DNA of 64,000 nucleotides from Chlorobium sp. (GTDB lineage Bacteria; Bacteroidota; Chlorobiia; Chlorobiales; Chlorobiaceae). Under the pieces are notes generated by a model. The model was not told the DNA's origin, made no database searches, and was given only the letters and a program-made list of their open reading frames with translations. This document shows positions 17,113 through 51,783 of this stretch, one piece after another (position 1 is the stretch's first letter; every line of letters starts with the position of its first letter). The stretch is from contig SZXV01000008.1 of the NCBI GenBank assembly GCA_005862225.1, forward strand, positions 1 through 64,000, given 5' to 3'. Both the position numbers and the translations under genes were made by a program.

Positions 17113-17164
17113 CTTAAATTCTTTTCTCTTGCATCTTTTTTTTTGTTGATCTATTGAATTTCTT

Positions 17165-23138: not shown

Positions 23139-24892
23139 TCAATAGACAAGTTCTCCCCCAAATTCCGTAACAAGAAATCTGACGACCTCATTGTTCTGTG
23201 ACAGTTCCTGAAAAAGAGTAAAGACTGTCTTCTCCCTGGTACAGGCATCTTTTTCAGCATCATAATGAAGACGAAGCTGAATTGGAAGGGTATAAAACTC
23301 TGACATTTCCCGCTGAAGCGTTGCTCGTTCCTGTAAAAGCTCCTCGAAAGAGAACTTTCGGCAGCAGGAAATTTCAAGCCCTCCAGACGGACTGCATGAG
23401 ACCAGTTCACAGGATTCCAGATGAGTTGCCATGAGATTGTGGGATTTCCGTACCAGATGATCAAGAAACTGGTGCCACTCCACTTTCAGTGCGGCAAGAT
23501 TCACAATTTTTTCAAATCCGGCTGAAGCTTCTTCAGAATGAACTTCCGTTGCAGAATGAACACGAAACTGCTTCGACGCAGGATTGGAGGCAAAATTGGA
23601 CAGTTTTTTCTGCCATGAACCAAGATCAAAATCTCCCGGGCTTGCAGACGGCTTTTCAGGAGGCAAAGGCGCCCCGGAAACTGGAGCTGACAAACCAGAC
23701 GTTCCCTTCAGTGGCTGCTCAGGTGCTTTTTTTTTTGAGGCGAGGGTACGACCGGCGATAGAGCAACATGCACAAGATCAATCAGTTTCAGGAGCGCAAG
23801 CTCAAACCGAAACTGGTACTCAAACTGAAACTTCAGCTCTTTCTGGGTCTGCAGGATAAACTCAACCATCTGCATGACGGCAGCAGATGAAAAATTCCCG
23901 GCATCCCGCTGATAGCGTTCGCGGACGGCATCCGGGCGCTCGACAAGTCGGGTAGAAGAGAGGTTCTGCACCACCAGAAAATTCCGAAGATGCTCGACAA
24001 GCTTTTCAAGAAAATCCTGCTCATCATATCCGTTCCTTATCACAAACTGGGCAACATCAAGCATTTTTGAAGGGTCTTGTGCCATAACTGCATCCGTGAC
24101 ATCGAACATGGTGTCATCATCAATATAGTTCAGCAGTTCGGCAACTCCCTGATAACTGATAGCTCCTTCATGATCATTTTCTGCTGAAAATGCGATAACC
24201 TGATCAAGGATGCTCTGCGCGTCACGCATTGAGCCCTGAGCCTTGCGACCAATAAGCTGAAGGGCATCACCCTCAACAGCAATATGTTCCGCATCACAGA
24301 TTGACTGAAGCTGCTTCTGAATATCATCAAGCGGAATCCGCTTGAAGTTGAAGCGCTGGCAGCGCGAAGAGATGGTTGCCGGAATCTTGTGAAGCTCGGT
24401 CGTGGCAAAAATGAAAATAGCGTGAGGCGGTGGCTCCTCAAGTGTTTTCAGAAAAGCGTTAAATGCGGCAATGGAAAGCATGTGAACCTCATCAATGATA
24501 TAGACCCTGTACTTCCCTTTCTGAGGCCCATATCGAACATTCTCCCGAAGTGTACGAATATCGTCCACACTGTTATTGGATGCAGCGTCAAACTCTGAAA
24601 TATTGAGACTTGTGCCAGCATCAAAGTCTCTGCAACTTTCGCACTCACCACAAGGCTCAGTAACCTGTTGCATATATTCCGCATCATCCATCAGCTTCTG
24701 GCAGTTCAGTGCCTTTGCAAAAATCCTCGCCGCCGTGGTCTTGCCAACACCGCGCAATCCGGAGAAAATATAACCATGCCCAACCCGACCCATGCGAAGC
24801 GAATTCTGGATGGTGCGCGTCACATGCTCCTGAGCAGTGATATCAGCAAATTTTGCCGGTCTGTATTTTCTGGCTATAACCTGATAACTCAT
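23139..24892 (-). CDS. dnaX: DNA polymerase III clamp-loader subunits tau and gamma, with a frameshift at a ten-A run
   Basis: The zero frame from ATG 24892 ends at 23708 and gives a 394-residue protein: Walker A GLRGVGKTTAARIFAKALNC, the four zinc cysteines (C..CGECESC), the DEVHMLS Walker B and sensor SSRCQRF. After the ATPase and collar domains the mRNA has CA(10)G. Read straight, it ends after KKKHLSSH. A -1 slip, or one added A, continues as KKKAPEQPLKG into a frame that stays open to 23139 and carries a plausible tau tail. So tau would be about 584 residues and gamma 394. The ATG overlaps the upstream yihY stop by four bases. Confidence 0.93.
23727..23736 (-). other. A10 slippery site in dnaX
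   Basis: Ten consecutive A residues in the dnaX message, placed exactly where the two dnaX frames overlap. The Thermus dnaX gene uses a comparable A run for transcriptional slippage, and E. coli uses A AAA AAG for ribosomal frameshifting. I see no strong upstream ribosome-like stimulator or downstream hairpin, which favours polymerase slippage here. Confidence 0.8.
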
Positions 24893-26198: not shown

Positions 26199-27464
26199 TT
26201 ATTTTAGAGGTGAATATCCGACACCCACCGATTTCACCCTGGTCATGAGCAGTAACCCGATAATAAAAAACAACAACAGCGATGCCAGTGCCACTTTTTG
26301 GCTCCCGGCCTGCGAAGATACCAATCCAAACACAAACGGACCTGCAATAGCCGAAGCCTTACCAAACGTCCCATCATAAAAACCAAAAAACTCAGTGACA
26401 TGTTCTGTTGGTGTCAGGCGAGTCATCATTGACCGGGAGGCAGCCTGCGATGAGCCCATAGACATCCCGGCAAGCATCCCTGTGTAAAAAAACAGCTCTT
26501 TACTATCCGCAAAAATTGCAGCAATAACAACAACAAGCCAGATCATGAGCGTAATCACGATGGTTCTCTTTGGACCAATCTTATCGGTCACAAAACCAAA
26601 TAGAATCGAACCTGCTATGGCCGTCGTCTGCACAAGCATGAAAAAAAAGATTAACTCTTCAGTTGTAAAACCAAGAGTGTTCTGTGCATAAATCGAGGAA
26701 AATGCTATAACCGTCAAAATAGCGTCATTATAGAAAAAACAGGCAAGGAGAAAACGCGCAAGATCAGGATAGTGCATAATATGCTGCACCGTAAACTTTA
26801 CTTCCCGGATAGAACGACCGAGTAAAACAAACGAGATTGGAGCTCTCTTCTCTTTTTTTTCATCCCGCAGCACAAGGAACAGGGGTGTTGCAAAAATTGC
26901 AAAAAAAAGTGCCGCGACCACAAAACTTGACTGGACATTCGAGACATTGGAAAGAACAATCCCCTTGCTCAACAGCGGCTGTACAAGAAGCAAAATAGAG
27001 AGTGCGCCAAGATACCCCATGGCAAAACCATAACCGGAAACCCTGCCGATACTTTTATCGGAAGCAAGTACCTTGAGATATGCATCATAAAAAACAATGC
27101 CTCCCTCAAAACCAATATTGGCAAGAATAAAAAGCATAATAGCCTGAACCACCATTCCAGGACCTGAAAAGGAGAGGAGAGCAGTAGCGACAACAGACAT
27201 CAGGGTAAAAAAAAACAGAAACCGTTTCCGTTTGCCCGAATAATCAGCAGCAGCACCAAGCACAGGGGATATAACAGCTACAAGAAACATGGAGAGGCTG
27301 ACGCTGAAGCCCCACCAGGCATCACCTGAAGGTTCACCGTAACAGATAACATTTTTAAAGAAAAGCGGAAAAGTAAATGTGACCATCATCACACTGAAAG
27401 AGGTATTGGCAAAATCAAAAAGCAGCCATGAGAAAACGCTGTATGTTTGCCTTGAGCGCAACAA
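26199..27464 (-). CDS. MFS transporter, UMF1 (Atg22-like) family
   Basis: Inner-membrane transporter with about 12 helices. The N-terminal FSWLLFDFANTSFSVMMVTFTFPLFF is the signature of the UMF1 group, followed by PVLGAAADYSGKRKR (MFS A-like loop) and, in the second half, FGFVTDKIGPKRTI. The substrate is unknown; fungal Atg22 exports amino acids from vacuoles. The frame is open to GTG 27542, which would overlap purQ by 74 bp. TTG at 27464, just past the purQ stop, is preceded by AGAGG and gives the family's usual short N-terminus, so I prefer it. Confidence 0.85.
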   Translation of the reverse strand: MLRSRQTYSVFSWLLFDFANTSFSVMMVTFTFPLFFKNVICYGEPSGDAWWGFSVSLSMFLVAVISPVLGAAADYSGKRKRFLFFFTLMSVVATALLSFSGPGMVVQAIMLFILANIGFEGGIVFYDAYLKVLASDKSIGRVSGYGFAMGYLGALSILLLVQPLLSKGIVLSNVSNVQSSFVVAALFFAIFATPLFLVLRDEKKEKRAPISFVLLGRSIREVKFTVQHIMHYPDLARFLLACFFYNDAILTVIAFSSIYAQNTLGFTTEELIFFFMLVQTTAIAGSILFGFVTDKIGPKRTIVITLMIWLVVVIAAIFADSKELFFYTGMLAGMSMGSSQAASRSMMTRLTPTEHVTEFFGFYDGTFGKASAIAGPFVFGLVSSQAGSQKVALASLLLFFIIGLLLMTRVKSVGVGYSPLK

Positions 27465-32326: not shown

Positions 32327-32898
32327 TCACGAACCCGCACTTTTTTTTTGCAGAAGTTTCGCTTGATATTTCAAAAAGAGAGTTTCAGTCAGCAATAGAC
32401 AAGCTTGAGTCTGTTTCTGAGATGTTTTCGAACTCATATCTTTTTCATTTAATTTATGCAAGAGCGCTTAAAGGTCTTCACCATATCTCTCTGGCTCGGG
32501 AATCTTTGCAAAAATCCTGTACCATCGCCCCTGGGAACCAGATTGCATGGAAAGAGCTTGCTGATCTTCAGACGTCAAGCATTGCCGAGAAAACAGAGAG
32601 TCCCTCAGTCATTTTTGATGCTGTTACCGATGAACTGGAACAACTTTCTGCTGCGCTCATGAAATTTGAACCAGTAAAAACATCGGAAAATGCTGATCCA
32701 ACCTCGATTCTCGAACAAAAACAGCCATTTTCAGACGATACGGCTATTGCGGTTCCCACAGAAAGCCTGGCCAATCTTTTCACAGCACAGGGTGCCTATA
32801 AAAAAGCAATCAAAATTTATACCCTTCTCATTCAGCTCAAACCTGAAAATGCTGATCAATACCAGGGAGAAATTGATTCGTTGCTTGAACAGCTATAA
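32323..32898 (+). CDS. Tetratricopeptide-repeat protein of unknown function
   Basis: 191 residues with no signal peptide. Two TPR-like hairpins lie at the N-terminus ([43 protein letters not shown]). A low-complexity acidic linker follows, and a C-terminal TPR has [28 protein letters not shown]. Such proteins act as scaffolds. It is translationally coupled to ddl, which hints at a role near the cell envelope, but no function can be stated. Confidence 0.75.
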
Positions 32899-39066: not shown

Positions 39067-39113
39067 AAATTATTGACTGGAGAAAAAAAAATTGTTTACC
39101 TTTCCATCCTCAC

Positions 39114-51723: not shown

Positions 51724-51752
51724 GCACCTCATCTGAAGAAGGTGCTTTTTTT
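51724..51752 (+). terminator. Rho-independent terminator after tRNA-Leu
   Basis: Arms GCACCT (51724-51729) and AGGTGC (51740-51745), with further pairing inside the loop, followed by a long T run. It separates the rpmG/tRNA unit from the next gene and overlaps the 5' end of that frame, arguing against the most upstream start there. Confidence 0.82.
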
Positions 51753-51783
51753 TTGCTTTAATAATTCAAAACTTCTTGCAGTA

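Follow-up and report, generated by a model that had tools for sequence, protein, structure and literature searches.

A conserved ten-adenine run in dnaX of Chlorobium and its relatives as a probable site of transcriptional slippage between gamma and tau

Escherichia coli obtains the gamma/tau pair from one dnaX gene by −1 ribosomal frameshifting on the heptamer A_AAA_AAG, where only A6G is needed and an internal Shine-Dalgarno (SD) sequence and a stem-loop are present. In the account of Larsen et al. (2000), as relayed in PMC5009743 and PMC1088944, Thermus thermophilus instead relies on RNA polymerase slippage at an A9 run, and the possession of two tRNA-Lys has been linked to this mode in Thermus (PMC5009743). 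Bacterial RNA polymerase slips on runs of nine or more A or T, with A10 among the cited cases, and insertions outnumber deletions (PMC6260861). Beyond these models, a scan by Antonov et al. (2013, PMC3711429) collected 17 dnaX genes of the two-ORF kind, drawn from 12 genera and with A10 in nine of them. Tau depends on recoding in these genes, for which transcriptional realignment was suggested, and the named examples include Chloroherpeton thalassium (A9), Chlorobium chlorochromatii (A8) and Chlorobium phaeobacteroides (A7). According to Atkins et al. (2016, PMC5009743), a single nucleotide can reverse which product is straight and which is recoded when efficiency is near 50%. The two-ORF A10 arrangement has therefore been known for Chlorobi since 2013, and C. 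phaeobacteroides was discussed in PMC5009743, so that the original prediction for the locus described here, according to which a dual product would be new only for this lineage, was mistaken on that point.

The window, that is, the whole stretch of 64,000 nucleotides that was analysed, belongs to the genome of a green sulfur bacterium and carries dnaX, the gene for the clamp loader of DNA polymerase III, with the following features.

23708..24892, minus strand: dnaX 0-frame, encoding a 394-aa gamma-type product (AAA+ ATPase, lid, domain III) with the C-terminus ...QKKKHLSSH
23727..23736, minus strand: A10 run, the proposed slip site, read in the 0-frame as CAA AAA AAA AAG, next codon CAC
23719..23721, minus strand: third-frame TGA, which would end A9 or A12 transcripts in a predicted gamma-like product of about 390 aa
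23708..23710, minus strand: 0-frame TGA, the gamma end, for A10 or A13 transcripts
23139..23726, minus strand: tau-specific C-terminal frame (−1), which transcripts with A11 or A8, or ribosomes shifting by −1, would enter

The original prediction had placed the A10 run between 23700 and 23745, had the straight reading end at codon 394, and described another frame, open to 23139, with a plausible tau C-terminus; all three points are borne out. The straight reading from 24892 to 23708 contains Pfam matches to PF13177 (DNA_pol3_delta2), PF22608 (DNAX_ATPase_lid) and PF12169 (DNA_pol3_gamma3), and its product matches the 397-aa NCBIfam dnaX model PRK14955 with an E value of 1e-248. No stop interrupts the −1 frame between the run and 23139-23141, and its product aligns with positions 428-620 of PRK14954, a 620-aa single-ORF dnaX model (E 1.5e-64). 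Tau, the N-terminal part fused to this product, would be about 584 aa long. After the run, the third frame closes two codons on and the 0-frame six codons on. From this layout and its conservation, one dnaX gene very probably yields both gamma and tau, as had been predicted.

The tau-specific frame comprises a flexible linker followed by a folded C-terminal domain, and the tail as a whole is conserved, with W38, W84, L103, C121, E128, D156, L175, F189, G190 and E192 invariant across Chlorobiales. An AlphaFold model places a confident domain at residues ~77-165 that resembles domain I of DnaA (4tps, Z 9.5) and DciA, with only weak matches to E. coli tau (2aya, 5fku); the modelled fold is compatible with the KH-like domain V of tau. 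Sequence searches of Pfam and the PDB with the tail gave no match, and the PRK14954 alignment identifies this region as the C-terminal part of tau better than fold similarity does.

The locus combines traits of several known systems. With the two-ORF genes of PMC3711429 it shares the 0-frame gamma stop, the −1 tau frame, the A10 junction and the Chlorobi affiliation, and with E. coli the in-frame A_AAA_AAG and the derivation of a gamma/tau pair from one gene; the E. coli gene differs in its two stimulators, neither of which is seen at the window's junction. With Thermus thermophilus, as portrayed in the relayed account, it shares a long A run, near stops in both non-tau frames and two tRNA-Lys, encoded in the window's genome by genes with ttt (UUU; L202) and ctt (CUU; L204) anticodons; here, too, no stimulatory hairpin is found. 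The two differ in direction, since in that account Thermus reads tau straight and makes gamma by slippage, whereas here the straight product is gamma and slippage would be needed for tau, and in the kind of support, slippage being proven in Thermus and predicted from sequence for the window gene. What had been announced as a third mechanistic setting is better described as a reversed arrangement of a known mechanism.

Our comparative analysis covered 81 Chlorobiaceae dnaX loci (about 79 genomes) and 10 loci from other Chlorobiales families, together with 63 loci from named Bacteroidota, a further 60 obtained by searching the whole phylum, and an outgroup of 16 loci; judging by run length, the A7 and A8 Chlorobium species of Antonov et al. 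are absent from this set. In the 180-nt zone that follows domain III, at least nine consecutive A occur in 81/81 Chlorobiaceae and 10/10 other Chlorobiales. The length is A10 in 78 Chlorobiaceae loci, A9 in two and A11 in one, and the other Chlorobiales carry A9 or A10 throughout. Outside this zone, the Chlorobiaceae genes hold no such run in 125,923 nt, nor do those of the other Chlorobiales. Since AAG is commoner than AAA for lysine in the dnaX genes compared (800 against 492 codons), codon preference does not account for the unbroken A10. The Lys-rich ftsK linker in the same genus serves as a control: its A runs vary from 8 to 12 and are absent in some genomes. The tau frame shows 648, 456 and 1326 differences at codon positions one, two and three, which indicates that it is under coding constraint. 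The original prediction had proposed an alignment of Chlorobiales dnaX, and in it both the run and the two frames are conserved.

These data bear directly on the view that the junction reflects a sequencing error, a decayed gene or a separate internal start for the C-terminal frame. A TTG at 23693 does open the tau frame after the run, but it is not conserved (in L004, for example). A run common to all 91 Chlorobiales loci is not a sequencing error, and these loci include single-contig genomes and share the frames, with tau constrained; the probability of any of these explanations is close to nil.

Runs of at least ten A are confined to 11 distinct sites in the whole genome (2.5 Mb, pattern search), and some of the others merit mention in their own right. 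The ftsK linker (L240/L312, with A10 at 675116-675125 of G000:C4, and L313-L335) has an in-frame run of A8-A12 within Lys-rich sequence in most of the Chlorobium genomes compared; if the polymerase slips there, a shortened, membrane-domain FtsK could result, and the length of the run is not fixed, unlike that in dnaX. One A10 (L235, G000:C4:315697-315706) lies just upstream of the likely start of a gene that, by eye, encodes a Rieske-type iron-sulfur protein, and an A11 (L233, G000:C4:110906-110916) lies upstream of a frame with a chorismate mutase-like product, again by eye. Two further A10 runs, L242 (G000:C11:326448-326457) and L237 (G000:C4:415871-415880), fall in sense-strand open frames of 534 and 426 codons and are slippage candidates. 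The window itself contains other 9-base A/T runs, at 17136-17144, 27207-27215, 32341-32349, 39083-39091 and 51746-51754, in a number not above chance.

The second conserved element is the pair of stops close to the run in the two non-tau frames, which we tested statistically, unlike Antonov et al. (2013). Both non-tau frames close within 10 codons in 80/81 Chlorobiaceae loci, against 5.3 expected when tau codons are shuffled, an expectation that, like the others given below, counts related genomes as separate. Among gamma-straight Chlorobiaceae, the third frame meets a stop within four codons in 65/66 loci (14.3 expected by codon shuffling), and in all 15 tau-straight loci, against 2.3 expected, the frame that a −1 ribosomal shift never enters closes within 10 codons. 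The stop outlasts changes of residue or codon: the T of the TGA stays where proline is replaced by histidine (L011) or leucine (L142), and in L029 a CTA-A variant keeps a stop as TAA. The sole Chlorobiaceae locus with no near third-frame stop is L201 (G047:C82), a second, partial dnaX that is probably contamination.

Length and stops together also speak to phase variation, in which changes of run length in the DNA itself would make cells alternate between gamma and tau. Homopolymers are prone to replication slippage, and relatives with A9 and A11 exist; against this stand the exact A10 of 78/81 loci and the selected stops in both other frames. In well-studied bacteria dnaX is essential, and this, with the fixed A10 and the selected stops, makes an all-or-none switch implausible, so that we regard phase variation as extremely improbable.

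The product read straight from the DNA is gamma in 66 of the 81 Chlorobiaceae loci and tau in 15, G020 being one of the latter. On a maximum likelihood tree of the N-terminal part of dnaX from 89 Chlorobiales loci, at least 11 changes of polarity are needed, and the run and the stops persist throughout. Aligned junctions attribute these switches to one-base differences upstream of the run (L030, L128, L138), to length changes inside it (A11 in L017, A9 in L140 and L145) or to one-base differences right after it (L144, L146 and others), and in metagenome bins a switch seen in a single genome may in some cases come from faulty assembly. The tau-straight relatives were considered as counter-examples and rejected as such, because they carry the same run and stops and represent the other polarity of one cassette; the Antonov scan (PMC3711429), limited to two-ORF genes, did not take in such single-ORF relatives. 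The original prediction had named relatives with 11 A and a single frame as contrary evidence. Such a relative does occur, namely L017, but as one of many switches in which the run is kept it argues for slippage rather than against it. Retention of A10 and of stops in both frames through at least 11 reversals suggests that each of the two products is important and that selection acts on their mixture rather than on the direction.

Taken together, the run, the stops in both non-tau frames, the lack of stimulators and the two tRNA-Lys favour Thermus-type RNA polymerase slippage over frameshifting of the E. coli type, and we consider slippage at the A10 run the probable mechanism. On this run, RNA polymerase would produce mRNAs that differ in their number of A. 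Those with A10 (or A13) would be translated to the stop six codons on and give gamma of 394 aa; those with A9 or A12 would stop after two codons, giving a near-identical gamma-like protein; and those with A11 (or A8) would enter the tau frame and give full tau, including its C-terminal domain. Because a single run would supply all three frames, the frame that is straight in the DNA should hardly matter, and single-base indels could have flipped polarity many times while run and stops were retained. Heterogeneous transcripts and the production of both proteins are what we infer from these features. In line with slippage, the run measures about 9-10 bases, codon phase and polarity make no difference, both frames are stopped and ribosomal stimulators are missing, the phase, polarity and stimulator observations applying at the level of the group. 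Wherever gamma is straight, tau lies in the −1 direction, equivalent to the plus-one-A frame, which fits the excess of insertions over deletions in bacterial slippage (PMC6260861).

The same observation can be turned around, as a single direction hints at ribosomal frameshifting (Antonov et al., PMC3711429), and further features of the site invite the E. coli-type reading, in which the mRNA is uniformly A10 and a −1 slip by some of the ribosomes gives tau. The heptamer A_AAA_AAG stands in the 0-frame of the window gene and of 74/81 Chlorobiaceae loci, a G follows the run in 81/81, and unpublished E. coli-like stimulators have been reported for C. phaeobacteroides (Atkins et al. 2016, PMC5009743). 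The heptamer had been overlooked in the original prediction, whose preference for slippage for want of a hairpin stands as far as the hairpin goes but leaves ribosomal frameshifting in play. The sequence following the run in the window folds no better than its shuffles (z +1.27), whereas E. coli dnaX in the same procedure gives z −1.62; no conserved hairpin emerges over the 91 Chlorobiales loci (mean z 0.00), and an Rfam search of the junction returned no match. An SD sequence upstream of the site is absent in the window, and short SD-like motifs occur in 10/91 loci, none of them conserved. E. coli, checked alike, has both hairpin and SD, and its third-frame stop is 12 codons away. Strong hairpins directly behind the run set two loci apart as exceptions, L138 (z −3.7) and L190 (z −3.1), where a ribosomal stimulator may have been added. 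An in-frame heptamer is lacking in 7/81 Chlorobiaceae, in 4/10 other Chlorobiales and in most Bacteroidota loci, and in other Bacteroidota the run is found in all three phases, with C, G or T as the next base. A −1 site needs seven bases, not ten, and a ribosome that never enters the third frame has no need of a stop there; a second tRNA-Lys (CUU) also exists. With neither stimulator in the clade, ribosomal frameshifting acting alone appears unlikely.

A joint process, in which the polymerase makes the mixture and ribosomes add some −1 shifting on the same run, would accommodate a site that fits both motifs, and poly-A sites have been treated as usable by either mechanism (PMC3711429). Nothing positive speaks for a ribosomal share, and we hold this combination to be unlikely as well. 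Whether recoding is transcriptional or ribosomal can be tested within Chlorobium, because the genus includes species with A7 and A8 and one in which stimulators are reported (PMC3711429, PMC5009743).

Outside Chlorobiales, runs of at least nine A occur in the 180-nt zone in 45/63 named Bacteroidota loci and 0/16 outgroup loci, and in 21/60 of the phylum set, which consists of the listed matches most similar to the query and so gives no rate for the phylum. In the rest of the genes, such runs number two, one and three, respectively. Chitinophaga, Pedobacter, Mucilaginibacter, Hymenobacter, Dyadobacter, Rufibacter, Sphingobacterium and Chryseobacterium, among others, carry the cassette in the named set (loci L034-L112; phylum set L251-L310), as A9-A10 with near stops and in both polarities; many Bacteroidales are without it. 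Both-frame stops accompany the run in 42/45 named loci against 10.5 expected and in 16/21 of the phylum set against 5.2 expected, and their positions are numerous and different, which argues against one inherited string. No earlier description of such a spread across Bacteroidota was found in the open-licence literature. We think it somewhat probable that a polarity-neutral slip cassette, A9-A10 with stops in both frames, is old and widespread in Bacteroidota dnaX. What the analysis adds to PMC3711429 and PMC5009743 is the exact-length conservation, the third-frame stop test, the count of polarity switches and this spread.

For these organisms, a dnaX annotated as 'gamma only' or 'tau only' gives a misleading picture. 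A 2012 review held that most bacteria outside enterobacteria and Thermus lack a dnaX frameshift signature (PMC3290774), a statement that a Bacteroidota-wide cassette, if true, would contradict. The role of gamma, and the range of bacteria that make it, have long been at issue; if the cassette is indeed widespread, gamma would be a general product of Bacteroidota, and which protein is read straight would drift by neutral one-base indels.
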